In this document: positions 26,347 to 60,411 of the stretch, one piece after another
Position numbering within the stretch: the stretch's first letter is position 1
Layout: the number at the start of each line of letters is the position of its first letter
NCBI GenBank assembly: GCA_949358305.1
Contig: OX442319.1
Coordinates: 12,090,001 to 12,154,000, forward strand
Direction of reading: 5' to 3'
Origin: Strigamia acuminata
Lineage: Eukaryota; Arthropoda; Chilopoda; Geophilomorpha; Linotaeniidae
Length of the DNA stretch: 64,000 bases
The notes under the pieces: model-generated
What the model was told of the DNA's origin: nothing
Database searches by the model: none
The model's input: the letters and a program-made list of their open reading frames with translations, nothing else
Made by a program: the position numbers and the translations under genes

Positions 26347-27165
26347 TGTGGTGAGCAAAGTGGATAAATATTCCCCTCAAGCGAATATTTGCCCTTTGAC
26401 TCACTGCAATAGACGGGTCGTTCCCCTCGTGTTGGCTCCGCCTCTCCCTGAGCAGGTGTGTGCCTCGAGGGGAGTGAGGTGACGGGTAGCAAGCCCCCAT
26501 TGGCTGTGCCTGCCCTTCACACTGACCCATAAAAGGGAGAAATTCCCGCCAAAAGACAGAACTTACACAAACGACACCAAGAACACAGCAACTACCTCAC
26601 CGTCAGGCCAACTTCAACTACAAGTTAGGATTGATCGAGGATCGCTGAGTAAAGTGCAAACTGTAACTCTCACGAAGTCACTTGAGAGCTATTCCGGCGA
26701 AAGCAAGCGAATAGCCCTTGTGAAATCACCCAGAATAATCGCCCAGTCGATTATTCGCCGAAGTAAGTGTCCGAGTGCTTTGTAGGGAACCCCAAAGTTC
26801 CTAGACGAGGCCTCTGCGACGCTAAACCAAAACCCTAGACAACAGGCACGGATAGAAGACTCGAAAGAGCATTCCACCGCGTCCGTGAAGACGAATCCGT
26901 GATGAATTAACGACAACTCGAGACGCCGCCTTTGTTCCGTCGACCACGCGGAACCGACGACGCCATCTTGAGAAATCCTTTGTTCGACGCTGACCACGTC
27001 GACTTTAGTTGTATACTGAGTGTATTTTAAAGGCATAAAGCCTGGTGAATAAATTACCTGTTTATTTACATACATTTAGTATTCATTTGGGTATTTACAT
27101 AATTGATCACAGGTAAAGTATTACACGTTAGCGCTATTTAAACCTATACCAAGTAGGACGCGACA
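26347..27165 (+). mobile_element. Solo LTR, 819 bp
   Basis: Starts TGTGGTGAGC, ends CGCGACA, and is flanked by TAAT on both sides (26343-26346 and 27166-27169). The other NLR copy has the empty site with a single TAAT at the same place (near 45680), which proves an insertion after the duplication. It contains a promoter-like CATAAAAGG at 26528 and a GTGAATAAATT polyadenylation signal near 27048. The 3' edge lies about 40 bases before the NLR start codon, so it may now drive or disturb that gene. A 4-bp duplication fits Ty3/gypsy. Confidence 0.9.
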
Positions 27166-27203
27166 TAATGAATTGAACATTCACAGACATTATTTCGTAA
27201 ACA

Positions 27204-30200
27204 ATGGACACCAGTCCGACTGCTAACATCGCAAATGAAAGCCAAGACGAGCACGGTGGCAGTGGATTTGCGAAGCTACACATCGAAGGTGCTAAACAAG
27301 TTAATGCACCGGTAGCAATTTATAATACAAAGATTTATCCAACTCGTGACCCCGAAGGTTAGCATTACTATTTTACATATTCAAAACGAAAATACATCCT
27401 TTGTAACAAATACATGTAACTAAATTAATTCTTTTACTGTATGTACAGTTGGTGCTAACAAACGGAAACATGAAGTCAGATCCTGCTGCGAAACAACTGA
27501 TGGTGATGGCAACAAACGGTGCGATGTTTTTCAAACAAATCTGAAAACGTTTCACAGCAAATTAGCTTTACCAAAAGTTGCTTGGATGAAGGAAGGGAAA
27601 AAGTTGATGATTGACGAACATTTTATCCAATTGGAACTAAACGAATCGAAGAGACAAATCAAAATACAAGACGTTTTCAGTTGCGTGAAGAACAAACGAC
27701 CGCTCCGAATCCTCATTGAAGGACAGCCGGGCTTCGGCAAAACAACACTGGCGATCAAACTAGCCCACGACTGGGCTATGACTGCGAAATACAGCAACTT
27801 CAAATTTGCTTTTCTGGTGCCTTTGCGAGACCTAGGACGACGCAGCTTCGAAGAAGTGATTGAAGAAATAGGAAAACGGTGCGACTCATACAACATCGTG
27901 TCCATTATAAACAACCACAGAAGAGAAACGCTTTTTCTACTCGACGGCTTAGATGAATTGACGTCAGAAGAACGAGGAGAAATCACGAAAATTTTATACC
28001 GCCAAATGTACAGCGAAGTAACGGTGGTTGCATTCTGTCGAACGGGTCTGTTCAGATTAAGTGGCGATGAAAGGTCGGGATTGTTCGGATCTCACGAAAT
28101 GCTAGACGACTTTTCCGACAAGAGAATTTACACAATGGGCATTACGAGCACGGATAAGAAAAGGGAATTTTTGGAGAAATTATTAGTACCAAAAAATACT
28201 ATCGAAGTCGTAATGAAAACTTTATCGTCACAATTGGAATTATTCAATTCGCCGTTACTTCTCATGCTCCTGTCAATTATAATTCGCGGAGGTGAAGCCG
28301 TTCACGTTGGGACCATGAAAACTGATTTGTTCAAAAAAATATTCAACCTCATTTTAAAGCAAAGTTTCACCAAACGTGGAGAGAAATTGGGTGATAATTT
28401 TGACCTATTTCGATTAGACTCACCGTTGAACAGTATTCAAGAAGAAATAAAAGAGTTTGGAAATTTAGCAGTGCAGAAAATAGTTCAAAACGACTTTAAG
28501 TTTGAGAGAAATGATGTAACAGATGCCATTTATCAACTTGGCTTTCTTTCTAATCGTGAAGAGATTACGTTTGATGGTAGAAAAAATCATTACGAAGTTT
28601 TCCATCTATCTATTATCGAATTCGCAGCTGCGTTTGCTTTGTGGATTGAAATTATTACTAACAAATCTGCATTGATGGAAAACAATTTGAAATTGGTTAT
28701 GAATCATTTCTTCAAAACTGGTGGAACGTCACTGATATTGCCTGTGCTCGCGAGTCTAATGGAGAGTGAATTAGATTCCTTGTTGTCCGTCTTCGATTCT
28801 TACAATGTGTGGTTCACTTACTATTGCAATTTTCTTCCCATGCTTCTGTCAGAATGCTCGCCAAGCAATATTCAAAACTCTAAACTTCTGAAAAATTTTA
28901 TTCCTGATTCTATATTAGCCTCCGTTCAAAAAAATGAAAAGATATGCAGAGAAATGTTAAAATACGGCATTAATTGCGGGAAAATTAAATTAATTAAAGT
29001 TGACAAAGAAACAATATTAGAAATGTTTGCAGATGAAATTAGAACTCGTCTGCGAATTACGTTCGAATTGAATCCCGATACAAAATTCACAGTTTGCTCA
29101 AAAGCCAGTAAAGCTAGAGAAGTGTTTTCATCCCGAATTCCGTTTGAAGGACCGTTGGAGGAATGTTTACGCTTTACCGCATCACCAAATTGTGAATCGT
29201 GTCACCTGGAATTCAGTTCATACGAAGCTAGTTCAGAATTTCTACAATTAATAAGGAAGCACGAAGTATTCAGCAAAATCAAATATCATCGATTAACAAT
29301 TACAATATCAACCGAATTCGAGAAACAACTTGTCATAAATCTCCTACGAAATAATCAAGTGGAATACCTTGAGTTAATACTTTTAAAGAGTCTTCGTCTA
29401 GAAGAATTAGATATGACGGACTTGTCGATCTGTGCTGCTAAATCCGAACGTTTGCAATACCTAAGGTTGGTTGACTGTACCGCTGATTTGTATGATCTTA
29501 CTAATGGTGGGAATAAGAAATATCTCTTACTGGCTCTTAGTGGAGGTACTTTAACTTGCAGAAAACCTTTATTGCCCCGTAACTGTTGCCATCACGTGGA
29601 AATGTCCAGTCTTGAAGCAATGGTTGAGATGGAGCCCACAGTGGTTGATTGGTCTTCTCTCACTGGGATTCATAATATGAAGCAAAAATATTCCTCATGG
29701 ACTGGGTTTAAGACTGTGAAAACGTTGCTAATTCCACATCCTGATCTCGCATTTCTAAATCCATTTACTAACCTACAAACATTACAACTTGTAGTTTCTG
29801 AGGGTACAGACGTGGAGAAGTTGGCTGATTGGATCAAAACGCTCCCAATTATCAATCTGATAATTAACAATAAGATTTCACCAGGGATCACAAAATTATT
29901 CAGACGCATGAATAATTTATGGGCCAACAAAGGGAAATCACAATTAAAAACAATCACTTTATTTGATTATGCTGGGACCCGTTATAAATACTCAGATGCA
30001 CATGATTTGCTCTTAGGACTCCGCAGCTCCTATTGGGACACTGTCAATTTCTTTGGAGGAGTACATACAGATGTCGATAAATTGGTGCAATTTATCTCTA
30101 ATTTAAATTTGTTTGTAAAAATTTCCCCGGCTGAATCGATGTATTTTGAACTTGAACCACATTTCAATCATTTCAACACTTATTATAATTTTAATTGTTT

Positions 30201-30252
30201 ACGTATAGTAAGGAAATCAGATGACAAAAGCTGGCCTTGTAATTTAATATGA
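27204..30252 (+). CDS. NACHT-domain NLR-like protein, copy 1
   Basis: Two exons, 27204-27357 and 27449-30252, join in phase to 985 residues. Exon 1 encodes 51 residues that include KLHIEGAKQVNAPVAIYNTK. The NACHT ATPase follows: Walker A GQPGFGKTT at about residues 143-151 and Walker B LFLLDGLDE at 213-221. Then come a helical region (LLLMLLSIIIRGGE; EVFHLSIIEFAAAFALW) and a C-terminal leucine-rich part (YLELILLKSLRLEELDM; NLQTLQLVV) that should form irregular LRRs. No CARD, PYD or death domain is seen. Proteins of this layout act as intracellular immune sensors that oligomerise on binding ligands; that role is by family. NLRs are uncommon in well-studied arthropods. The ATG is shared in position with copy 2. 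A solo LTR lies directly upstream. Confidence 0.88.
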
Positions 30253-33629: not shown

Positions 33630-33701
33630 CTCTAATTTCGATTCCGTTGAGTAGTTTGCTGTTGAAGATCCAAGACAGAAATGTGTTATTCATTTGAATA
33701 T

Positions 33702-34245
33702 TGTTACGAGCGCAGACCTCGCTGTACGACAGCGGGCCTAAACGCTCTGTTTAGAGAATTAATTCTGAAAGCTCTCACTAGGCACACTGGAGTTTCCAAA
33801 TCCGCTCACCAGTTGTCACTGTGTTAATTATGCACAGGGCAACTGGACTAATCAATCAAGTAGAGCGGGGGTGGACCCAGAGTTTACCTGGTGAGCTAAG
33901 TGGGTTTGAGAGAGCAGAAATGTTCTGAGCCTCAAACAGTTAACATGGTAAGTAAAGGCTTCTGTGGACCAGCGCACACAGCGCTTGGTCCCACCCCGCC
34001 TTTCCAAATTCATAGAGATATAATTTGATTATCATTCTTGCTTTCTTGCTTTATGTTTATGTAAAATAAAGGATTATGTTTATCATTTGATTTTGTTAAG
34101 TTTGTAATAAGTCCCATAGAATAAAAGAGATTTATTTAAATGATAAATCAGTTCTCTCAATCATTTCACCTAAAGGATTTCAAGGTCTTTGCTAAATTAA
34201 TTAGCATTTGTTATGTGTGTGGATCACCCCAACCCACACGTAACA
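33702..34245 (+). repeat. 5' LTR
   Basis: Begins TGTTACGAGCG and ends CACGTAACA (TG...CA). Contains AATAAA-type signals near 34065 and 34115 and a consensus splice donor CATG|GTAAGT at 33947-33953. Confidence 0.95.
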
Positions 34246-34248
34246 AAG

Positions 34249-34264
34249 TGGTGGAGATGCGGAT
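34249..34264 (+). promoter_or_regulatory. Primer binding site
   Basis: TGGTGGAGATGCGGAT begins three bases after the 5' LTR. Its first TGG is complementary to a tRNA CCA end, so it should anneal to a tRNA whose 3' end reads CCGCATCTCCACCA. I did not assign the tRNA. Confidence 0.7.
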
Positions 34265-35026
34265 TTAAAAGACCCTGTATAATTGCTTTATTTAAGAGCT
34301 AAAATGTTAGTAAAAATCTGGAATTTTGTGTAAAATAGTTTGAAATTTGGCCCTGAAAATGAGTAAGGTTGAAAATACAAATTGGCTATAATATTATCAG
34401 ATTTGAAAGCAAATAAAGAGACTTCTGAAAATCAATTTGGGTGTGAAAAATTGAGATTGGGAATGAATATTTAATTGTCTTGTGAAAAAAGTGTTGAATA
34501 TTTAATTATCTTGTGTAAAAGTGTTGAATATTTAAGTGTTTTGAGTTGAAACTGAGCATGAATGTTAAATGAGTTTGCATGTTACTGAATATTTAATTAG
34601 TTGAAAACAATTAAACAGTATTTTAGAATTAAAGCCTAGTTTTAGTGATGAATCATTTTAAGGTTATACATATTTTGAATAATTTTAAGAATTGTAAATA
34701 GTTTTAAAACAATTTTAACTCATGCACAGTTATAAGTAATAATATTATGAATTATTTTCTTTTCTCCTTAGCATGGTGAAAGTGTTTTAGTGATTAGTGT
34801 TTCACAGGTGAGGTGAATTTGTGTTTTGTGAGTGTGTGCCTTCTATGGTTGGAGTGGATCCATATTGAAGCTGGATCCTTCAAATATAACATTTCGCAAG
34901 AAATCATCAAGTATAATTGCGGAAGACAGAGAGCGACACTACACATTAACAACAGAATTCAAGTCTGATGAACATTTGGATAGTGAGATAGAACCAGAGG
35001 ATAGTGAACCTCTAGAAGAAGTCAAG

Positions 35027-36094
35027 ATGGCGACTAGCTCAACTGCAACGTTGGAAACCCTATTAAAAGGACTAGTAGTGCAAAAGCGCAATCCAGTCAA
35101 TTATGATACCAGAACGGGGAACATTGACGAATGGATTGTTGGTTATGAAGCGATTGTTGCTACGGATACGGAACGTGCCAAGCATCTGCCGATTGTAATG
35201 AAGGAAGATGCGCTCTCCTGGTACGTCGAGCAGCTACAAGCTAACCCTAGCTGGGCTTGGGACGAATGGAAAGCAGCATTGCAGAAAAAATTCCGCCGTA
35301 GGCCCGAGCACGTCCTCAATACCCTACACGCCCTTAAGCATGAAGAAGGGACAGCCATTGACTTTATTAAGAAAGTTCTCCACTTGTGTTCATTTGCCAG
35401 ACCAGCCCTCAGTGAAACCCAGAAAATCAACTATGTCTATCAGGCTATGAAACAGCCGATAAAAGACAGGTTGATGACAGTTTTTCCTACAGCTATGGAT
35501 GATTTGATGGAAAGAGTTCAGCTTTATGAAGCCCATGGAGTGAAGGAAGATCCGTCGACAGCTTTACTGACCCTTGTACAGAAACTTGTGGCTGACAAGG
35601 CGACCGTCGCACCGTCAACTTATTTGACTGGAGTGGCAGAAGCCCCAAAGTCGCTCGCAGAACTTGTAGCAGAAAACAACTTTCTAAAAGAACAGAATAT
35701 GTTTTTGCAGAATGGCGTATTGCAAGAGACGATCTCTCCAATTTTCCATCAAGGGACTTGGTTTACCCCAGTCAACAATCAGCGTCAAGGAGGAAAATTT
35801 TTCCAAGGAACCCAGCAGAAGCAGCAGCAATTCCAGCAAAGTTCTCCGCAGAACTGGCAGAATTTTCAGCAGCAGCAAACTGGACCCGGATGTTTCCATC
35901 AGCCCAACTGCACCTGCTGTGCGTCACAAAACAGAGGTGGCGGTGGGAAGAGGCGTGATACTTGGCGTTATAATAATAAGAATAATGAAGAAAATAACAG
36001 TAACCAAGGAAATGGTCCTGCTAACAATAACAGCGGTAATAACCAAGCAAGAAATCCACCTGGGAATCAAAAACAACAGAACCGGGGAAACTAG
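35027..36094 (+). CDS. gag: Retrotransposon Gag
   Basis: ATG 35027 is the first ATG in frame and has a good context (AAGATGG); the frame is open upstream to 34832 but without an ATG. The 355-residue product has a retrotransposon gag core (GNIDEWIVGYEAIVATD; DALSWYVEQL; WDEWKAALQKKFR) and a long Q/N-rich C-terminus. A Cys/His cluster (CFHQPNCTCC) replaces a standard CCHC knuckle. It forms the particle that packages the element RNA. The stop TAG 36092-36094 directly follows the slippery heptamer. Confidence 0.88.
   Translation: MATSSTATLETLLKGLVVQKRNPVNYDTRTGNIDEWIVGYEAIVATDTERAKHLPIVMKEDALSWYVEQLQANPSWAWDEWKAALQKKFRRRPEHVLNTLHALKHEEGTAIDFIKKVLHLCSFARPALSETQKINYVYQAMKQPIKDRLMTVFPTAMDDLMERVQLYEAHGVKEDPSTALLTLVQKLVADKATVAPSTYLTGVAEAPKSLAELVAENNFLKEQNMFLQNGVLQETISPIFHQGTWFTPVNNQRQGGKFFQGTQQKQQQFQQSSPQNWQNFQQQQTGPGCFHQPNCTCCASQNRGGGGKRRDTWRYNNKNNEENNSNQGNGPANNNSGNNQARNPPGNQKQQNRGN
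36085..36091 (+). promoter_or_regulatory. -1 ribosomal frameshift slippery site
   Basis: G GGA AAC lies in gag phase and is followed at once by the gag TAG. The pol frame is -1 relative to gag and is open across the site. This is a canonical X XXY YYZ heptamer. A downstream stimulatory structure was not assessed. Confidence 0.85.
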
Positions 36095-36096
36095 TA

Positions 36097-39000
36097 GTGC
36101 CACAAAGACAGTTAAAAAGTAGGCGTAGGAGAAGAAGAATGAGAAGGAAGTTGGAAATAGTTGACATTAACACCACTGAAGAAATGCTGACAATACCTGT
36201 CGTAGTGAACAATTTAGAAGTCAAAGGTGTATTGGATTCAGGTGGATATAGAAATATTATAAGTGAGGAACTGGCTGATAGATTGCAACTGTCACGTCGG
36301 CTTTGCCCTTATATCAAATTGAGGGTAATTGATAACTCCTTAATATCTCCTGAAGGAATTGGGAAAATTACAGTCACTATTGGAAGATTGGACTACAGCA
36401 TGGAGGTATTAGTAGTGCGGGGATTTGGTCATGAGCTCTTACTAGGTGATCCTTTCCTCAAACAAGCAGGGTGTGTGTTGGACTATGACCGACGGAAGGT
36501 CTTTGTGGGGCGAAAAAGTGAAGGATTTAAACCGGAAGTTTTTCCAATGTCAAGAAATTATCTGGAACAAACATTTATTGGCAGACTTACTAAATCAATA
36601 AAAATTCCAGCAATGCACGAATGCATGCTTTTCATTGGAGTGAACAATAATAAAACTAATGAAGATTTGTTTGCAGAGCCATTATCCAATTTGACTGATA
36701 GATTGGGAGTAATTGGCTGTAAAACTCTAACTACATTTAAGGATGGATCAGGCATAATGCGAGTTGCGAATCCGACGAAGAAGGCGGTTTATCTGCAGAA
36801 AGGAACAGCGATTGCCAAGGCATACCACGTCATTGACATTGGTAGTTTTGAGGAGCAGCCACCTAATGGCTTGAACTTTGATTCCGCCGTGTCAAGTGAT
36901 CTACTGGATACGAACCAAAAGGAGCAGCTGAAGAGCCTACTGCGTAAGAATGAAGATAGATTTGCCACTTCAGATCAGGATTTAGGCAGAGTAAAGGTCT
37001 ACAAGCATAAAATAGACACAGGTGATGCACAGCCAATTCACCTGCAGCCATATCGCCGATCCATGAAAGAGAAAGAAGTCGAAGCAGAGGAAACCCAGAA
37101 ACTGCTTGAAATGGATGTAATCAGAGAGTCCGAGAGTCCATGGAGTGCGCCAGTGCTTTTAATTAAGAGACGTGATGGCAAATGGCGGTTTTGTGTTGAT
37201 TGGAGGCGGCTGAATGCAGTGACTAAGAAGATGGTTTACCCACTCCCCCGAATCGACGACACCTTAGACCAACTGTCAGGTGCGAAGTATTTTTCCATGA
37301 TGGATTTAATCCAGGGATATTTCCAAGTCGAGATTGATGAGGAGGATAAGGAAAAGACTGCGTTCACAACGTCTTCCGGTCATTACGAATTTAATGTACT
37401 GGGCCAGGGCTTGTGTAATAGTCCTGCGGCATTCCAAAAGCTCATGAACAAAGTGCTTGGTAACCTCCTAGGAAAAGTGTGTATAGCCTACTTGGACGAT
37501 CTGATCATCTTTTCAAAGACATTCGACCAGCATTTGGTTGATTTAGACAACGTCTTTTCGAAATTGCGCACGGCGAATTTAAAGGTCAAATTAAGTAAAT
37601 GCACTTTTGGAACGGATACCATTAAGTATTTGGGACACGTCATCAATGCAAAAGGAGTTTCACCGGATCCACGTAATTTGGAGTCCGTGGCGAAGTTCCC
37701 AAAACCAACAACAGTAAAGCAGTTGCAAGGATTTCTTGGATTATGTTCTTATTATCGCAAATTTATTCGTGGTTTTTCAGACGTGTCCAAGTGCCTTGTA
37801 AATCTGACAAAGAAAGAAGAAAAGTATGATTGGGGACCGCCACACGATGAAGCGTTCCAGAAGCTGAAGACGGCCCTAACGACAGTTCCAGTGCTGGCTC
37901 ATCCAAATTTCAGCGAGCCCTTTATGATCTCTACTGACGCCAGTGCATATGGATTAGGAGTTGTGCTGAAACAAAAGATAAATAAACAAGAACATGTCGT
38001 AGCCTACGCTAGCCGACTGCTTAGCAAAGCAGAGCAGAATTATGATACGACAGAACGTGAGTGCCTTGCGATCATCTTTGGCATACAAAAGTTCCGACCT
38101 TACTTGTATGGCCAAAAATTCTACGTTATTACGGACCATTCAGCGTTGCAGTGGCTCAAAACTGTGAGAAATCCCAACGGACGACTCACCAGATGGTCAC
38201 TCCAATTGGTGGACTATGACTATGAGGTCATTCACAAGAGTGGTAAAAAACATCAAGATGCAGATGCGTTAAGTCGTATTCCTGAGGCAGTGGGCGAAGA
38301 AGAAATAATTGATTTACCTTTGTTGCTACTGGAAAATCTGGACCTACCTGCCGAGCAGCGAAAGGATCAGAAGCTGAAGGAATACGTTGATGCACTTCGA
38401 GATATTGAGCGCCTTTCGAAAAAGAAGAGACGATCTTTACAACAGTTCGTGCTCCAGGATGAAGTTTTGTTCAGAAGGAAGAATTTCCTGGGCAACGAAA
38501 GGTTACTGCTGGTTGTGCCAAAACACTTACAGCAAGATGTTCTGCACGAGATGCATGATGGCCTTCCAGGAGCTCATCTGGGCCTGTCGAAAACTTGGAA
38601 AAGAATAAGCACCAGATTCCATTGGCCCAGAATTTATGCAGAGGTCAGAGACTACGTCTTGTCCTGCAAGAAGTGCGCTGCAGCAAAAACAGATACCACA
38701 CCACCAAAAGGATTATTGCAGCCCTGGACAACCGTGACCAGACCATTCCAAAGAGTAGGAATGGACACTTTAGGAAAATTCCCGACTTCAAAGAAAGGGA
38801 ATAATTATGTGTTTGTTATGACGGACTATCTATCTAGAGCGGTCTGTGCGAGAGCGTCACCAACTTGCACGGCCATTGCAGCAGCGGATGCTTTAGTTTA
38901 TGAGATAATGGTGAAAGAAGGATCTCCAAGGGAAATTCTGACTGACCGTGGTACAGAATACAGAAATGAATTGATGGAGGAGGTCTCGAGACTCTATAAA

Positions 39001-39996
39001 TCAAAACATAAAACAACTAGCGGATATCATGCCAGGACAAACGGTTTAACGGAGCGTTTTAACGCAACACTTGCGAAAATGCTTCTGAACTACGTAAATG
39101 AAGATCATACGGACTGGGATGATTTCCTGCCACACCTGTTATTCTCGTACAACACGTCGGTTCACGAGACAACTGGATATACCCCATACTTTTTATTAAG
39201 GGGGTATGAAGCAGATGTTAACGTCGATGTGAATCTGAATCTCCCGAAGAAGGAATTCACTTTGAGAACTGCCAAATTCATCGAGGCAGCAAGGAGAATC
39301 TCAAACCAGAGACTGGAGCAGATGTCAGCTAAAAGCAAAGAAAGATTTGATAAGAACAGAAAGGTTGTGGAGTTCGAGCCTGGAGAATACGTTTATTTGA
39401 AAAAACCGAACAGAAAGGTTGGACTCAGTGAGAAATTACTGCCACAATATTCTGGTCCTTACGAAATAGTGCGCCGAACTGCACCAAACGATTACCAAAT
39501 AGTAGATTCAACTGGTAAAAAATCAGACATTGTAAATGTAGAAAGGTTAAAACCTTACAAGCCAAGGAAAGAAGTATCCATAATTATGGATAGGAATAGT
39601 GAAACTGAGGTGAAGGCGGAAAATTCTAACAAAACTAAGTTGATGGAAAGTAAAGGAATTGAAGAAGTTAGAATTAACACTAAAAAATCACTAAAACAAT
39701 CAAAAAAACCATGCACAGAAAGATTCATAAGTGATGAAGATCAGATTTCTTTAAAGTCGTTGTTCGAACCGGAGGAGACGACGGGAAAACGGTTGAAAGA
39801 ATTGCCGCTGGTCGGCGATAAAGACGAAACGTCGGAGAAACGTTTGACGAAATTGCCACTAGATGGCGATAAAAGAAAAACGTCAGGACAGCGTTCGCGG
39901 AAATTGCCACCAGAGGGCGTCGTCGACGAAACACGTGACTTCCGTTTTAAGCATTTAAGACCGCGAGCACGGACGAATTATCGTCAGTTCTACTGA
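36097..39996 (+). CDS. pol: Retrotransposon Pol (PR-RT-RNaseH-IN)
   Basis: Entered by -1 frameshift from gag; no ATG is needed. Counting from 36097: aspartic protease motif VLDSGG near residue 47; reverse transcriptase with YLDD at 465-468; RNase H with DAS near 614; integrase with an HHCC zinc part (GAHLGLS; FHWPRI; CKKC), catalytic D890, D950 and E986 (35 residues between the last two), and a GPY/F module (YSGPYEIV) near 1118. No stop interrupts 1299 codons. The tail after the integrase carries three imperfect copies of a unit like KRLxKLPLxGDKxxTS (residues about 1225-1280), which is not usual for Pol. Products copy the RNA to DNA and insert it. Confidence 0.95.
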   Translation: MPQRQLKSRRRRRRMRRKLEIVDINTTEEMLTIPVVVNNLEVKGVLDSGGYRNIISEELADRLQLSRRLCPYIKLRVIDNSLISPEGIGKITVTIGRLDYSMEVLVVRGFGHELLLGDPFLKQAGCVLDYDRRKVFVGRKSEGFKPEVFPMSRNYLEQTFIGRLTKSIKIPAMHECMLFIGVNNNKTNEDLFAEPLSNLTDRLGVIGCKTLTTFKDGSGIMRVANPTKKAVYLQKGTAIAKAYHVIDIGSFEEQPPNGLNFDSAVSSDLLDTNQKEQLKSLLRKNEDRFATSDQDLGRVKVYKHKIDTGDAQPIHLQPYRRSMKEKEVEAEETQKLLEMDVIRESESPWSAPVLLIKRRDGKWRFCVDWRRLNAVTKKMVYPLPRIDDTLDQLSGAKYFSMMDLIQGYFQVEIDEEDKEKTAFTTSSGHYEFNVLGQGLCNSPAAFQKLMNKVLGNLLGKVCIAYLDDLIIFSKTFDQHLVDLDNVFSKLRTANLKVKLSKCTFGTDTIKYLGHVINAKGVSPDPRNLESVAKFPKPTTVKQLQGFLGLCSYYRKFIRGFSDVSKCLVNLTKKEEKYDWGPPHDEAFQKLKTALTTVPVLAHPNFSEPFMISTDASAYGLGVVLKQKINKQEHVVAYASRLLSKAEQNYDTTERECLAIIFGIQKFRPYLYGQKFYVITDHSALQWLKTVRNPNGRLTRWSLQLVDYDYEVIHKSGKKHQDADALSRIPEAVGEEEIIDLPLLLLENLDLPAEQRKDQKLKEYVDALRDIERLSKKKRRSLQQFVLQDEVLFRRKNFLGNERLLLVVPKHLQQDVLHEMHDGLPGAHLGLSKTWKRISTRFHWPRIYAEVRDYVLSCKKCAAAKTDTTPPKGLLQPWTTVTRPFQRVGMDTLGKFPTSKKGNNYVFVMTDYLSRAVCARASPTCTAIAAADALVYEIMVKEGSPREILTDRGTEYRNELMEEVSRLYKSKHKTTSGYHARTNGLTERFNATLAKMLLNYVNEDHTDWDDFLPHLLFSYNTSVHETTGYTPYFLLRGYEADVNVDVNLNLPKKEFTLRTAKFIEAARRISNQRLEQMSAKSKERFDKNRKVVEFEPGEYVYLKKPNRKVGLSEKLLPQYSGPYEIVRRTAPNDYQIVDSTGKKSDIVNVERLKPYKPRKEVSIIMDRNSETEVKAENSNKTKLMESKGIEEVRINTKKSLKQSKKPCTERFISDEDQISLKSLFEPEETTGKRLKELPLVGDKDETSEKRLTKLPLDGDKRKTSGQRSRKLPPEGVVDETRDFRFKHLRPRARTNYRQFY

Positions 39997-40130
39997 ACCC
40001 GTCTTACCGTAAACTCGACCTGATCGAGTGATAAAGTGAGATAGGTGAATTAAACTGTTGAATTTTGGATTGAATTTGGACTTAGAAATTGTTTGAATTT
40101 TGAGTTGGATTTTAACTTAGAAAATTTTTC

Positions 40131-40132
40131 AG
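40131..40132 (+). promoter_or_regulatory. Candidate splice acceptor for ORF3
   Basis: AAAATTTTTCAG ends at 40132, two bases before ATG 40135. With the strong donor in the 5' LTR (33947/33948) or GGTGAGG at about 34807 this would give a spliced ORF3 mRNA, as in retroelements that express a third ORF. Confidence 0.5.
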
Positions 40133-40134
40133 CA

Positions 40135-41481
40135 ATGGAAAATTTGAAGATTGCGCGTGACTCGGACGAGGATTCAAATGCGTCGCACGAATCGAAGATA
40201 TTTCATACAGTGTATACCCGACGAGAGAACGAATTTCCCTTGCGTGACGAAGAAATTGAGCAGTTGCCGAGGATTAGGGAAATTGATGATTTAATTGTGT
40301 GTGAGCGACCATTTACAGATCGAAACAAAGTTCCGGTTGGTACAGTGGATAAGCGAACAATGATGACGCCACGCCAATTAAAGAAGTACGAACATAAACG
40401 AAATTCACGTCATCGACGGCAAGCTTCGAAACGATTGGATGCAAGGACGGAGATCGCTCTTGAGTCGGAGAAGGGATTAAAATTCATGAGAAAAAGGCAA
40501 GTCCGAGCGAAACAACAGCAGGAACGCCGATTAGGAGAAGTTCGACAGGAACGAAAAAACATCATGGCGGCAACTAAGGAAAAGAACTTGACCGGAACTC
40601 CGGGATGGAGCGGCTACACGGCGTGGTTGCGTGTGGAGACGGATTTGGCGCTGAAGGAGGCAGAAATTCGAAAGAAAAAGCAGCGAGCGGAGGCGCTGAT
40701 GAGGCGAAAATTCAGGAACGATCCCGATGTTGACTTACCGTCGGCTTTGCGAACTTATCGCGTAGGCTTGACGGTGAGCCAGCAAACGGAAATTCAAGAA
40801 TGGAGCGCGACATTTGCGGATGTGAATTCGGGGATGGAATGCTTCACGACGCCAAACCGGGAAATCGTGGTGACAGCAGGTGAAATGGCGTCATTGCTGC
40901 GATTGATGCCGGGCCGGGATTCATGGGTTTTCGACTCGGTTGTCGATTATTACCTAAACATCGTGACTTCGGATCCGGCCTATCGACGTGTTTTCGCGTT
41001 TCCAACTGCTGCCGTGCAGTACATGATCAGACGGCAATATAATGAAGCAAGAGCTGTAATGAACGGATTTTATCCAAGACCGACTCACAAGGTTTGGGTA
41101 ATCCCGATGGGAATACCCGAACATTGGCAGCTGGCCATCGTCGATTTTACGCGCCCAAGGACGGAGGTGGCCCTGTTCGACCCAAGCGGCCCATTAACGA
41201 TGAAGGATATAAGATGGCAGGCTGTGTTAAATGGTTTGGCGAGTTTTAACATCCAGCTCAACCAACTCCACCCATTTGAAGCGCCGGCGATTGGCCAACT
41301 GGACGGGGACAGTTGTGGCCCAACCATCTTATATTTCGTGCGCCGATATCTAGTTGACCGCGACCTAATGCTTCCAGCGCTCCCTTACGATTTAAGAAGC
41401 CGAATTGCGTTGGAGATCATTAAAGATCAACTAATACCTTTCGAGGAGGACGTGACAATTGAAGAAATCGAAGAAGATTAA
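40135..41481 (+). CDS. Third ORF: Ulp1/C48-type cysteine protease
   Basis: 448 residues from ATG 40135 (the frame opens 14 codons earlier at 40093). The first 200 residues are charged and basic, with coiled-coil-like runs (KQQQERRLGEVRQERK; KEAEIRKKKQRAEALMRR). The C-terminal half matches the Ulp1/SENP fold: WVFDSVVDYYLNIV (entry motif), VWVIPMGIPEHWQLAIVDF with His330, LFDPSG with Asp349, and GQLDGDSCGPTILYFVRRYL with Gln388 and Cys394. So the His-Asp-Gln-Cys set is complete and in the right order. Ulp1 enzymes cut SUMO or related modifiers from proteins; substrate here is unknown. It lies between pol and the 3' LTR, where an env gene would be. It is not related to the usual retroelement aspartic protease. 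Confidence 0.85.
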   Translation: MENLKIARDSDEDSNASHESKIFHTVYTRRENEFPLRDEEIEQLPRIREIDDLIVCERPFTDRNKVPVGTVDKRTMMTPRQLKKYEHKRNSRHRRQASKRLDARTEIALESEKGLKFMRKRQVRAKQQQERRLGEVRQERKNIMAATKEKNLTGTPGWSGYTAWLRVETDLALKEAEIRKKKQRAEALMRRKFRNDPDVDLPSALRTYRVGLTVSQQTEIQEWSATFADVNSGMECFTTPNREIVVTAGEMASLLRLMPGRDSWVFDSVVDYYLNIVTSDPAYRRVFAFPTAAVQYMIRRQYNEARAVMNGFYPRPTHKVWVIPMGIPEHWQLAIVDFTRPRTEVALFDPSGPLTMKDIRWQAVLNGLASFNIQLNQLHPFEAPAIGQLDGDSCGPTILYFVRRYLVDRDLMLPALPYDLRSRIALEIIKDQLIPFEEDVTIEEIEED

Positions 41482-41782
41482 AAATCGAAATTACAATTGT
41501 TATCGGTATAATTTTGTGTAAAATTTTGTTTTAGATTTTCTCTTGTGTATAAATAAACACGAAGAGTTTAATTTTATGTAATTGGCTTTTCCAAGAAAAG
41601 TATTGTTAAACTAAGAATTGAGGGATATAAAGGTAATAGAACAATTCTCGTAAATTCTGTTAATAATTTTGTGAAAAGCAAGAATGATGTTGAAAGTTAG
41701 AAGTGAAAATGATAATCTCGAAGTAGAAATTTGGGGGTATTTTCATTTGAAATAATTTGAATTTTGGAGACCAAAATTTTTC

Positions 41783-41794
41783 AAAGGGGGGGGC
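41783..41794 (+). promoter_or_regulatory. Polypurine tract
   Basis: AAAGGGGGGGGC directly precedes the 3' LTR, the expected plus-strand primer position. Confidence 0.75.
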
Positions 41795-42338
41795 TGTTAC
41801 GAGCGCAGACCTCGCTGTACGACAGCGGGCCTAAACGCTCTGTTTAGAGAATTAATTCTGAAAGCTCTCACTAGGCACACTGGAGTTTCCAAATCCGCTC
41901 ACCAGTTGTCACTGTGTTAATTATGCACAGGGCAACTGGACTAATCAATCAAGTAGAGCGGGGGTGGACCCAGAGTTTACCTGGTGAGCTAAGTGGGTTT
42001 GAGAGAGCAGAAATGTTCTGAGCCTCAAACAGTTAACATGGTAAGTAAAGGCTTCTGTGGACCAGCGCACACAGCGCTTGGTCCCACCCCGCCTTTCCAA
42101 ATTCATAGAGATATAATTTGATTATCATTCTTGCTTTCTTGCTTTATGTTTATGTAAAATAAAGGATTATGTTTATCATTTGATTTTGTTAAGTTTGTAA
42201 TAAGTCCCATAGAATAAAAGAGATTTATTTAAATGATAAATCAGTTCTCTCAATCATTTCACCTAAAGGATTTCAAGGTCTTTGCTAAATTAATTAGCAT
42301 TTGTTATGTGTGTGGATCACCCCAACCCACACGTAACA
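41795..42338 (+). repeat. 3' LTR
   Basis: 544 bp, same length as the 5' LTR and identical to it by eye. Confidence 0.95.
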
Positions 42339-42342
42339 ATAT

Positions 42343-45719: not shown

Positions 45720-48700
45720 ATGGGCAACAGTCCGACTGCTAACATCACAAATGGAAGCCAAGACGAGCACGGTGGCAGTGGAAGTGCGACGCTAAACATC
45801 GAAGCTAGAAATGTTACTGCACCGGTAACAATTCACAATACAAAGACTTATCTAACTCCTGTCCCCGAAGGTTAGTATTACCATTTTAAATATTTAAATA
45901 ACAAATACGTGCAACTAAATTAATTATTTTCTTGCATTTACATGAAGTGAGATCCTGCTGCGAAACAACTGATGGTGATGGCAACAAACGGTGCGATGTT
46001 TTTCAAAAAAATCTGAAAACGTTTCACAGCAAATTAGCTTTACCAAAGGCTGCTTGGATGAAGGAAGGGAAACAGTTGTTGATTGACGAACATTTCATCC
46101 AACTGGAACTAAATGAATCGAAGAAACAAATCAAAATACAAGACGTTTTCAGTTGCGTGAAGAAGAAACGACCGCTCCGAATCCTCATTGAAGGACAGCC
46201 GGGGTTTGGAAAAACAACGCTGGCGATCAAACTCGGCCACGACTGGGCTACGACTCGGAAATACATCAACTTCAAATTTGCTTTTCTGGTGCCTTTACGA
46301 GACCTAGGACAACGCTGCTTCGAAGAAGTAATTGAAGAAATAGGAGAACGGTGCGACTCACACGACATCGTGTCCATTATAAACAACCACAGAAAAGAAA
46401 CGCTTTTTCTACTCGACGGCTTAGACGAATTGAAGGAAGAAGAACGAGGAGAAATCATGAAAATTTTATACCGCCATCGGTACAGCCAAGTAACGGTGGT
46501 TGCATTCTGTCGAACGGGTCTGTTCAGATTGAGTGGCGATGAAAGGTCGGAATTGTTCGGATCTCACGAAATGCTAGAAGACTTTTCCGACAAGAGAATT
46601 TACACAATGGGCATTACGACCACGGATAAGAAAAAGAAATTTTTGGAGAAATTATCTGTACCAAAAAATACTATCGAAATCGTAATGAAAACTTTATCGT
46701 CACAATTGGAATTATTCAATTCGCCGTTACTTCTCATGCTCCTGTCAATTATAATTCGCGGAGGTGAAACCGTTCACGTTGGAACCACGAAAACTGATTT
46801 ATTCAAAAAAATATTCAACCTTATTTTGAAGCAAAGTTTTACCAAACGTGGAGAAAAATTCTATGATGATTTTGACCTATTTCAATTAGGCTCATCGCTG
46901 AACAGTATTCAAGAAAAAATGAATGCGTTTGGAAATTTAGCGGCCCGGAAAATAATTGAAAACGACGTTAAATTTGAAAGATATTATCTGACTGATGCCA
47001 TTTATGAATATGGCTTTCTTTCTAATTGTGAAGAGATTACGTTTGATGGTACAGAAAATCATTACGAAGTTTTCCATCTATCTATTATCGAATTCGCAGC
47101 TGCGTTTGCTTTGTGGATTGAAATCAGAACTAAGAAATCTGCATTGATGGAAAATAATTTGAAATTGGTTACGAATCATTTCTTCAAAACTGCTGGAACG
47201 TCACTGATATTGCCTGTGCTCGCGAGTCTAATGGAGAGTGAATTAGACTCCTTGTTGTCCGTCATCGATTCTTACAATGTGTGGTTCATTCAAGATCAGA
47301 ATTTGCTTGTCACGCTTCTATCAGAATGCTCGCCAATCAATATTCAAAACTCTAAACTTCTGAAAAATTTTATTTCTATTCGTGTACCAGCCTCCGTTCA
47401 AAGAAATGAAAAGATATGCAGAGAAATGTTAAAATACGGCATTAATTGCGGGAAAATTAAATCAATTGAAGTTGACGAAGAAACGAAATTAGAAATGTTT
47501 GCGGATGAAATTAGGACTCGTCTGCTAATTGTGTTCAAATTAAATCCCGATACAAAATTCCTAGTTTTCTCAAAAGTCTGTAAAGCTAGAGAAGTATTTT
47601 CATCCCGAATTCCGTTTCAAGGACCGTTGGAGGAATGTTTACGCTTTGCCGCATCACCAAATTGTGAATCGTGTAAACTGGAATTGAATACACACAAAGC
47701 TAGTTCAGAATTTCTACAATTAATAAGTAAGCACGAGGTATTCAGCAAAATCAAATATCATCAATTAACAATTACAACATTAACTGAATTCGAGAAACAA
47801 CTTATTACAAAACTCCTAAGAAATAATCAAGTGGAATACCTTGAGTTAAAACTTGTGAAGTTTAACAAAGAAACGTTTACTCATAAAGACACCGCTTTGC
47901 TATGTTGTTTTCTACCCTTTATTCTATCAAATTTTCAATTCCATTCCCAATCATCTTTCCAATCCATTTATCAATCCGTTTTCCTATCATCAATTTTTCA
48001 ATCCTCTCGTCACCACACACTTCAATCGAGTGTTGAACCCTCCTTTTTCCAAAGTTATTCTGATTTTATTCATGCACAATTTCATGCATCTTTTTATCTT
48101 TTTATCTTTTTATCTTTTTATCACCTTTTATATCAATACTTTTCTCGATCACATTCTCAATCATTTTTACTATTCCTTAGTCGATCATTTTCACTATTCC
48201 TTAATCAATCATTTACAGCATTTCTTAGTCATTCCATTCTTCGTTCCATTCGTCGAATCTTTTTTCGTCCAGAAGAATTAGACATGACGGACTTCTCGAT
48301 CTCTGCTGCTAAATCCGAACGTTTGCAATACCTAAGGTTGATTGGCTGTACCGCTGATCTGTATGATCTTACTAATGGTGGGAGAAGGAAATACCTCCTA
48401 CTGTCTCTTTGTAGCGGTACTTTAACTTGCAGGAAACCTTTATTGTTCCCTAACTGTTGTCATCACGTTGAAATGTCCAATCTTGAAGCAATGGTTGAGA
48501 CGGAGCCTACAGTGCTTAATTGTTCTTCTCTCACTGAGATTCATAACATGATGCAAAAATATCCCTCATGGACTGGGTTTAAGACTGTGAAAACGTTGGA
48601 TGTGGCACATCCTGATCTCTTATTTCTAAATCCATTTACTAACCTACAAACACTACGACTTGTAGTTTCCGAGGGTACAGACGTGGAGAAGTTAGCCGAT

Positions 48701-49102
48701 TGGATCCAAACGCTCCCAATTATCAATCTGATAATTAACAATGAGATTTCATCTGGGATCCCAAAATTATTCAGACGCATGAATAATTTATGGGCCAACA
48801 AAGGGAAATCACAATTAAAAACAATCACTTTATATGAGTATGCTGGGACCCGTTATAAATACTCAGATGCATATGATTTGCTCCTAGGACTCCGCGACTC
48901 CTATTGGGACACTGTCAATTTCATTGGAGGAATCCGCACAGACGTTGATAAATTGGTGCAATTTGTCTCTGATTTAAAATTGTTTGTAAAAATTTCTCCG
49001 GCTAAGTCGATGTATTTTGAACATGAACCATATTACAATCATATCAACAGTTATTATTATAGTACTTGTATATGTATAGTAAGAAAATCAGATGACGAAT
49101 AA
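45720..49102 (+). CDS. NACHT-domain NLR-like protein, copy 2
   Basis: Exons 45720-45870 and 45948-49102 join in phase to 1101 residues. Exon 1 starts MGNSPTAN, a possible N-myristoylation signal that copy 1 (MDTSPTAN) lacks, and holds TLNIEARNVTAPVTIHNTK. NACHT: Walker A GQPGFGKTT at about 133-141 and LFLLDGLDEL. The rest parallels copy 1, except for an in-frame insertion of about 133 residues (roughly 691-826) rich in S, F, Q, L and H within the leucine-rich part, coded by pyrimidine-rich tandem DNA. The exon 2 acceptor moved: sequence for about eight residues present in copy 1 (VGANKRKH) is deleted. The C-terminus is slightly shorter. Many substitutions are replacement changes in an intact frame, so both copies look functional. 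Confidence 0.85.
47868..48272 (+). repeat. Pyrimidine-rich in-frame insertion in NLR copy 2
   Basis: About 400 bases absent from NLR copy 1 (junction near 29388). It is T/C-rich with imperfect units like TCAATCATTTTCACTATTCC and is open in at least two frames, because stop codons need purines. It ends TTTTTTCGTCCAG, a good acceptor-like sequence, but no donor was found that would remove it and keep the frame. Confidence 0.8.
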
Positions 49103-58047: not shown

Positions 58048-60411
58048 ATGGAGATTGACGAGACGGTTTTATCGGATGTGCATTTGTATACGGATAATTG
58101 CAGCGACGATGAGTCACAGGACGACGATATTAAAAGTTTGGAGTTTTTTCTGTGTTAAAAAAAAATGTTTTTGATGTTTTATTAATCTTATCTTTTTATT
58201 CCGATCCAGTTGTTGTTTCCCGGTTGAGGTTCACGCAATGTCAGCAATTGGAGAGTGTAAATAAAATACCGGCAGTCGATGCGGACGGAGATTTCGAAGT
58301 TGTGCGGCCGGTAACGCGAGTCGTTTGCATTCACCACGCGTTGTCAACGCGGCTAGGACTTGTCGGGCTCCAAGTAAAAGAAAACGGATCTATTTTAAAG
58401 GCGTTGTGAATGTGGACAAGTTTGGCGAAAGTTTTTATCGAATTTTATGAGTTTTTATTATTATCCACCATTTTTGTTTTAAAAGTTGAAAGTTTGGGTA
58501 ATTGAGTTAATTTTGCTGAAAATTTTGAGGAGTTTTGTAGGTTTGGTGAATTTTGAGGAAGAATTTTGATGAATTTAATAATTTTTTTTTAATTTTTTTT
58601 TTTGAGGAATTTCGTAGATTTATGTAATTTATTTGCCTAATTTTGCTAAATTGTATACATTTATTTAATTTTTCTGTGTAATTTTAACAAATTTCGTAAT
58701 TATTAAACTATTTTTCAAATTTTTTGCCAAATTTCGAAATTTATTAAACTATTTTTCAAATTTTTGCCAAATTTCATAAGCTCATTACATTTTTCGCCAA
58801 ATTTTGCAAAATTTCATAAATTTATGATATTTTTTGCCAAATTTCATAAATTTATAATATTTTTTGCCAAATTTCCTAAATTGATGACATTTTTTGCCAA
58901 ATTTCATAAATTTATAATATTTTTTGCCAAATTTCTTAAATGTATAATATTTTTTGAGAATTTTCATAAATTCATGATATTTTTTGCCAAATTTCATAAA
59001 TTTATGATATTTTTTGCCAAATTTCATAAATTTATAATATTTTTTGAGAATTTTCATAAATTTTTGAAATTTTTTGCCAAATTTCTTAAATTTATAATAT
59101 TTTTTGAGAATTTTCATAAATTCATGATATTTTTTGCCAAATTTCATAAATTTATGATATTTTTTGCCAAATTTCATAAATTTATAATATTTTTTGAGAA
59201 TTTTCATAAATTTTTGAAATTTTTTGCCAAATTTCTTAAATGTATAATATTTTTTGAGAATTTTCATAAATTCATGATATTTTTTACCAAATTTCATAAG
59301 TTGATGACATTTTTCGCCAAATTTCATAAATTTATAATATTTTTAAATGTATAATATTTTTTGAGAATTTTCATAAATTTATCATATTTTTTGCCAAATT
59401 TCATAAATTGATGACATTTTTTGCCAAATTTCATAAATTTACGAAATTTTTCGCCAAATTGTACAAATTTCGCAAATCTATTCAATTTATCTAAAAAACT
59501 TTGACAGATTCCATCCACTTATTTTTATCACTCATTTAACTCAACAGGTGTGGAACGGCGCACTCCTCCTCGCCGACTTCATTCTCGCCAAATCCTCAAA
59601 ATGGACGAACCAAACAGTCCTCGAACTGGGCGCCGGGACCGGCTTATGCAGCATCCTCCTCTCCACGTCCTCCAAACGCGTTTTCTGCACCGACACCAGC
59701 GAAACAATTCTAAAAACCTGTCAGAAAAACGTCGACACAAACGCCGAATTGACCCGCGCAGATGTCACCGTTCGGGAACTCAACTGGTCCGACCGGGATC
59801 ATTTCACCGACCGCGGCCCGTGGTCCTGGCGGCCGGACGACGTGAAATCAGCCGCAGACATCTTTTACATTTTCGCCTCCGATGGTAATTGATAACCAAA
59901 AGATTTATATCGTCAATTAGTTAAACGTCTGAGGGTCCAATTAAGCGCAATTAAAAAGATAAAATATCCGGGTAATTTTTTCCGTTTTAGTGATTTATGA
60001 TGACGACTTGACGGACGCATTTTTTGATTTATTGCTCGGATGGGATAAATGTTTCTGTTTGTTCATGAGTTTGGAAAAAAGGTAGGAAAACAAGACTGGC
60101 GAATGATTATGATTTTAATTGAGTAAATTAGGTTGAATTTCACGCTTTCGTCGATGGATATTGCCGCACCTGCTTACGCACATTTCCAGCAGCGGTTAGC
60201 GGCCTTGGAGGCGGATAATTGCTACGTGGTCGAGCGAGTTAAGGGCGATTTTCCACAATATTTTAGATACGAACGGACGAAATATTTGGTTAGTGAATTT
60301 AAGTTATATTAATAAATTAAGAAGTTTTAGTTAATTTTTTTTTTTTTTTTTTGGTAGGAGTTATGGCAAATTTGCAAATGCACCTGTTCAAATTGTGTCA
60401 ATAGATTATAA
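58048..60411 (+). CDS. METTL22: METTL22-type protein methyltransferase
   Basis: Six exons (58048-58135, 58210-58373, 59548-59884, 59991-60081, 60132-60288, 60358-60411) join in phase to 296 residues. The N-terminus is acidic (CSDDESQDDDIK). The class I SAM-dependent methyltransferase core has VWNGALLLADFIL, the SAM loop VLELGAGTGLCS, FCTDTS, VRELNW, the catalytic-side motif IYDDDLTDAFF (E/D-x-x-Y position) and SLEKRLNFTLSSMD, which identify the METTL22 branch of family 16. Human METTL22 methylates lysine on Kin17. Human is longer (404) with extra N-terminal sequence. Donor of exon 1 (A|GTTTGG) is weak. Intron 2 is almost entirely a 30-bp array. Followed by CPSF1 on the same strand. Confidence 0.9.
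58690..59480. repeat. A/T-tract minisatellite, exact 30 bp unit (METTL22 intron 2)
   Basis: About 25 units of 30 bases. The type is TTTTTGCCAAATTTCATAAA followed by TTTATAATAT; variants with GAGAATTTTC in place of GCCAAATTTC alternate in a higher-order pattern. Long ORFs on both strands are products of the repeat. Confidence 0.97.

Follow-up and report, generated by a model that had tools for sequence, protein, structure and literature searches.

A Ulp1/SENP-type protease homologue as the third open reading frame of young Ty3/gypsy elements

We describe a Ty3/gypsy retrotransposon whose third open reading frame (ORF3) is predicted to encode a homologue of Ulp1/SENP-type cysteine proteases (MEROPS C48). 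What appears to be new here is a free-standing, long-conserved C48 third ORF in a recently active lineage of LTR retrotransposons. The first-pass annotation of this DNA had proposed both a C48 third ORF in a young Ty3/gypsy element and a role for its product in escaping SUMO-dependent silencing; the former holds up, while the latter stays a proposal.

The element and its third frame

The window, by which we mean the whole 64,000-nucleotide stretch analysed (C8:12090001-12154000, in a host genome of 237.5 Mb), contains an intact-looking element on the + strand at positions 33702-42338, with LTRs, gag, pol and ORF3. Its 5' LTR (33702..34245, 544 bp, TGTTACG...CGTAACA) shows no difference from its 3' LTR (41795..42338), and the target duplication ATAT is present on both sides (33698..33701 on the left, 42339..42342 on the right). 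The stretch identical between the LTRs is 545 bases long, the 545th being assigned to the target duplication. LTR identity across 544 bp, together with the duplication, bears out the earlier description of the element as young. A primer binding site-like stretch, TGGTGGAGATGCGG, is found 3 bases downstream of the 5' LTR (34249..34262) and occurs in the same form, or one base longer, in three other ORF3 families. A polypurine tract, AAAGGGGGGGG (41783..41793), abuts the 3' LTR.

The gag frame (34832..36094, first in-frame ATG at 35027) matches Ty3_capsid of Pfam with 26.4 bits and an E value of 5e-6, short of the curated cut-off of 29.1. In pol (36097..39996), Pfam matches to reverse transcriptase (RT), RNase H and integrase exceed the curated cut-offs and those to an aspartic protease fall slightly under them, with LDSG present; a GPY module of the integrase was identified by eye, and the frame ends in a variable tail. 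The top PDB match for pol is Ty3 Gag-Pol (7q5b, E 5e-124). LTRs, target duplication, primer binding site-like stretch and the order protease-RT-RNase H-integrase all mark the element as Ty3/gypsy. Ty3 of S. cerevisiae resembles it in pol order and homology and, to our knowledge, has no third ORF. The pol frame is -1 relative to gag, and a slippery-type heptamer, GGGAAAC, lies in gag phase at 36085..36091, immediately 5' of the gag stop TAG. This is an arrangement that we take to be the classical layout for -1 frameshifting, making the heptamer a candidate frameshift site between gag and pol.

ORF3 occupies the space between the pol stop, which ends at 39996, and the start of the 3' LTR at 41795. 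As first annotated, it is an ATG-started frame of 448 residues (40135..41481, + strand, stop included). The predicted protein consists of a basic N-terminal region (K+R = 28% in residues 91-200) and a C48-like catalytic domain (residues ~240-445, 40852..41469), the latter delimited by a profile-to-SENP1 alignment and by invariant columns. In the acidic N-terminus, a SUMO-interacting motif is suggestive by eye and too weak to claim. Just 5' of the ORF3 ATG, a T-rich stretch followed by AG can be seen by eye in several families. Under a strict splice-acceptor rule, 2/9 ORF3s pass and the window copy fails, compared with 5/153 and 29/287 for background ATGs. Expression of ORF3 via a spliced RNA is a possibility.

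A C48 protease homologue

Searches with the window ORF3 alone returned no Pfam match at E<=1 and, with phmmer against the PDB, weak matches only (XopD, E 0.018; SENP1, E 0.075). We then considered alignment A1, which holds 19 ORF3s from the same genome, chosen from 30 aligned loci and 29-35% identical to the window ORF3. With the A1 profile, SENP1 is the best PDB match (E=1.1e-11, ~190 residues aligned), and every one of the 17 PDB matches with E<=1 is SENP1, 2, 3, 5, Ulp1 or XopD; the adenovirus protease (adenain, C5) is absent from these 17. Taken one by one, 12/19 A1 members match PF02902 with an E value of 1 or less, the best of them at 8.6e-4; the window ORF3 is not among the 12.

The catalytic residues were named beforehand, and a script that computed their positions placed them in the order claimed: His330, Asp349, Gln388 and Cys394. 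All four are invariant in 19/19 ORF3s, as are W264, W331 and the CGP around the catalytic cysteine. Residues 235-448 hold 21 invariant columns, and the chance that four random columns would all be invariant is ~7 in 100,000, a figure that serves as a guide only, given the relatedness of the rows and the nature of the residues. The predicted Ulp1 entry motif was likewise recovered, SWVFDSVVDYYL of ORF3 aligning with NWLNDEIINFYM of SENP1 in the profile alignment.

Among Ulp1/SENP enzymes, SENP1 is closest by profile score. ORF3 has the same His-Asp-Gln-Cys order and spacing, and shares with SENP1 the entry Trp and a C-terminal R..R..EI segment over the aligned region. It differs in its low identity, in having its own N-terminal region and in being encoded by an LTR retrotransposon. 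These comparisons support the view that ORF3 encodes a Ulp1/SENP-type (C48) protease homologue.

Distribution in the genome

Searching the genome with the window ORF3 protein gave at least 93 matches and with a distant member at least 96; when both are merged, at least 124 places match, fragments and stop-containing frames included. Of the matches to the window ORF3, eight are at 100% identity and a handful, which are older or broken, at 68-98%; the others are at 31-38%, and most of these have open frames of about 400-496 codons. The ORF3s fall into at least five lineages, between which ORF3 identity is 30-50%, and pol adjoins ORF3 in 28/30 loci with 1.5-kb flanks (L009-L038). A private capture by the window element, which would have undercut the initial reading, is ruled out by these places and lineages.

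Other ORF3-bearing families are also young. In three of the four tested, LTR pairs are identical over the 402, 512 and 506 bp compared, the 402-bp comparison being limited by the length of the fetched piece; for the fourth (L056/L058), an LTR pair was not found.

Beyond this genome, no ORF3 homologue appeared in a protein collection, either with the single sequence (6169 candidates) or with the A1 profile (8000 candidates scored), and among viral contigs 33 pattern matches yielded 0 confirmed. These collections appear to be poor in eukaryotic elements, so the null result says little about other animals.

Two loci have unusual layouts. At C9:10973368-10985742, a copy with full ORF3 has ~7 kb separating pol from ORF3, probably a nested insertion. 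At C1:48000427-48098944, five ORF3-like fragments lie within 100 kb, three of them equal-scoring and ~31 kb apart, looking like a segmental tandem duplication.

Recent copies lacking ORF3

To count copies of the window family with and without ORF3, we used two DNA queries. The first (the first 1016 bases of ORF3) was matched over its full length in eight places; its other matches are to two older relatives, at 74-77% (in three rows), and to one 84-base piece. The second (395 bases from the ORF3 end to the 3' LTR) placed the family 3' end in at least 40 places at 87-100% identity (best 40 of 41 candidates). All eight full ORF3 matches fall within these 40 listed 3' ends, so ORF3 is kept in 8/40, and in all eight its frame is open. 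For 27 of the remaining 32 places, lack of ORF3 means no full match to the first query; the other five were read directly. At 96-100% identity, pol is found in at least 34 places (best 36 of 6405 candidates), 8 of which are the ORF3-bearing copies; the listed pol places include partial ones and two that are interrupted by a stop.

The five copies read (L036, also C148, and L039, L040, L041 and L042) all have an open pol, and all retain a 3' remnant of ORF3, starting at the equivalent of window position 41384 in four and 41164 in C148. With a remnant in every copy, they look like internal deletions, which must be of two or more kinds, and not like ancestral absence. The stretch 5' of the deletion is 74-89% identical to the window in four of the five. 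LTRs were compared in four copies; in each, the pair shows no difference over 544 bp and ATAT flanks the copy left and right. Deleted copies that keep pol open have thus spread recently, and ORF3 seems dispensable in cis. Two ORF3-less copies have LTRs equal to those of the window element, yet the stretch before the LTR is only 94% identical. Such mosaic copies suggest template switching between co-packaged ORF3-bearing and ORF3-less RNAs. At L042 (C13:4124100-4126979), a Copia-type integrase frame, recognized by eye, runs on from the 3' LTR, which would fit insertion of this copy into a Copia element.

Evolution of ORF3

Where selection is measurable, ORF3 is kept under purifying selection. 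We computed NG86 dN/dS for 18 ORF3 pairs, eight of which have dS<1, the rest being saturated or nearly so. In 7/8 of the pairs with dS<1, dN/dS is 0.04-0.13. The eighth (L047/L051), one member of which differs in the N-terminal part, gives 0.39 overall; its N-terminal portion alone has 0.66, its catalytic portion 0.11. One caveat here is that 4/8 of the low-dS pairs lie within one family, and hence the pairs are not independent.

We also compared ORF3 with the integrase core in eight elements, with 120-147 integrase-core residues aligned. Identity is lower for ORF3 than for the integrase core between families F3 and F4 (0.70 versus 0.95), F3 and F7 (0.40 versus 0.85), and the window family and F7 (0.30 versus 0.69), which indicates that ORF3 evolves fast; the pol tail is variable too. 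Divergence outpacing the integrase core might be expected of a protein with changing targets, although rapid divergence at low dN/dS does not amount to positive selection.

Trees of pol and ORF3 for these eight elements concur on F2 and on an F3/F4/F6 group and disagree on where F2, F7 and the window family belong, with modest support. In the integrase core, F7 is nearer F3/F4/F6 (identity 0.82-0.85, split support 0.545), whereas in ORF3 it is F2 that is nearer (0.47-0.50, support 0.859). The window family groups with F8 in the pol tree (0.919) but not in the ORF3 tree. ORF3 may have been exchanged between families.

The phylogeny with host C48 domains, suggested at first pass as a check, sets the ORF3s apart, in an unrooted tree, from six further C48 domains found in the same genome (support 0.98). 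Long branches, and stops read as X in some stretches, make this modest evidence for a single origin. Probably, the gene was captured once by a Ty3/gypsy lineage, before its families here split. Derivation of ORF3 from the Mutator-like C48 genes of this genome is unsupported by the tree, in which branches are long. A frame of 1075 codons at L006 (C1:47588768-47592100), which has six copies of equal score, combines a zinc motif that is SWIM-like by eye with a C48 domain and a weak PHD match; it is probably a Mutator-like element with Ulp1. L003 resembles, by eye, a broken relative of L006.

Discussion

What might such a protein do for a retrotransposon? The reading that we tentatively favour is that the ORF3 product acts in trans to deconjugate SUMO or a related tag. 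In this scheme, a Ty3/gypsy lineage would have acquired a C48 cysteine protease gene once and then retained it under purifying selection. The basic N-terminal region may bring the protein to chromatin or nucleic acid, and the product would strip SUMO or a related tag off host or element proteins in trans, such that SUMO-dependent silencing or restriction of elements would be reduced. Enzymatic activity, SUMO as the substrate, the site, action in trans and an anti-silencing benefit are all things that we infer. Other ubiquitin-like tags are also cleaved by enzymes of the C48 fold.

The host genome holds Piwi-domain matches (36 rows) and MIZ-domain matches in two places, and its best PF02902 match, L001, is SENP1-like by eye. 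A Rad60-SLD search gave 23 rows, probably a mixture of ubiquitin and SUMO-like genes. In C. elegans, SUMO is required for Argonaute-directed silencing, and loss of the SUMO pathway raises transposon families (PMC8131101, from the part available). In plants, VANC proteins bring about hypomethylation of related elements, a case which shows that an additional ORF in a mobile element is able to relieve silencing in trans; some of these proteins have captured a Ulp1 domain (KIU), described as without known function in the available part of the review (PMC13317346). It is these host matches and precedents, along with a protease already present in pol, that lead us to favour a trans-acting deconjugase. 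Young copies lacking ORF3, four of them with identical LTRs, are what one would expect if the product acts in trans; they could also reflect plain present-day dispensability. A more specific version, in which a dedicated trans-acting deSUMOylase disarms SUMO-dependent (e.g. piRNA-guided) silencing and ORF3-deleted cheaters recombine in shared particles, is more speculative and somewhat unlikely in all its details.

Several other roles have to be weighed. The ORF3 product could instead deubiquitinate or deSUMOylate Gag, Pol or integrase of the element itself, favouring their stability, assembly or nuclear entry and leaving host silencing untouched. The enzymatic class would be identical, the basic N-terminal region could bind element RNA or protein, and co-packaging is suggested by the two mosaic copies; but ORF3 diverges faster than the integrase core, which mildly favours a changing partner, an argument tempered by the varying pol tail. 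We regard this role as unlikely, though less so than maturation, in which ORF3 would cut Gag or Pol. Proteases of the Ulp1 fold do cut adenovirus capsids and are thought to act likewise in Polintons, so there are precedents for service in particle maturation, and pol stands beside ORF3 in nearly all flanked loci. However, since pol already has aspartic protease matches with LDSG, such a role becomes less likely for ORF3; the PDB matches are SENP, Ulp1 or XopD to the exclusion of the adenovirus protease; and ORF3-deleted copies combine open pol with identical LTRs. Processing of the element's own proteins, also raised at first pass, is accordingly a less likely reading, even if the pol protease and the spread of ORF3-less copies would fit rescue in trans as well.

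It is also conceivable that ORF3, captured in an ancestor, has become dispensable cargo and is undergoing loss in the window family. The low proportion of listed 3' ends with a full ORF3 fits this, as does the fact that four ORF3-less copies equal the window copy in youth, judged by LTR identity. Nevertheless, other families contain dozens of open frames and dN/dS is low in the measurable pairs, both of which show long selection, and none of the eight ORF3-bearing copies of the window family has lost the open frame. We thus rank trans deconjugation ahead of stabilization of the element's own proteins, followed by maturation, an improbable role, and then by decaying cargo, which is slightly less probable again. 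By far the least credible reading is that ORF3 is an envelope-like or structural gene whose protease motifs are fortuitous. In gypsy elements, a third ORF is frequently env (PMC5408684). In ORF3, however, no transmembrane-like stretch was found (top 19-residue Kyte-Doolittle mean 0.91), and because such a stretch is lacking, we reject an errantivirus-like envelope; invariance of the catalytic quartet and the match of the A1 profile to SENP1 (E=1e-11) also speak against it.

Ulp1-like domains recur in Ginger1, Mutator-like elements and Cryptons, with functions that are unsettled in the sources as available. Ginger1 resembles the present element in bringing Ulp1 into a mobile element and in having a transposase akin to gypsy integrases. 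It is, however, a cut-and-paste DNA transposon, with the domain (Ulp1 or OTU, at the C-terminus) fused to the transposase and with no gag or RT; Mutator-like elements with Ulp1 are reported in hydra (PMC2836005, available part, for both). Plant VANDAL/KIU elements have an extra Ulp1-bearing gene, and their group has trans-acting anti-silencing proteins, but they are Mutator-like DNA transposons (PMC13317346, available part). In oomycetes, some CryptonS elements encode a C48 peptidase as an additional protein, although Cryptons are tyrosine-recombinase elements (PMC3212892, available part). The term Peptidase_C48 is used in a paper on plant CACTA elements (PMC8978399). Bdelloid LTR retrotransposons share with the elements described here an enzymatic, non-envelope third ORF, but theirs encode a GDSL esterase or a DEDDy exonuclease and no C48 protease, and the words 'sumo' and 'peptidase' are absent from the text as available (PMC5408684).

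Among the papers listed, none reports a C48 protease as third ORF of an LTR retrotransposon, judged by title and the opening of the abstract; an earlier note is possible. The range of gypsy third ORFs is widened here, from entry to possible counter-silencing. Young ORF3-bearing and ORF3-less copies within one family offer a natural pair for testing the benefit of the protease.

Other features of the window

The element is flanked by a related pair of NACHT-domain genes (27586-30252 and 45932-49102), the second of which has, by eye, a low-complexity insert. NACHT genes together with the SENP1-like gene suggest that the host is an animal. ARAGORN reports a tRNA-Arg at 27156-27233, which Rfam does not list at gathering score. 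At 58764-59354, low-complexity frames overlap on both strands, apparently derived from a tandem repeat of the KFHKFIIFFA type.
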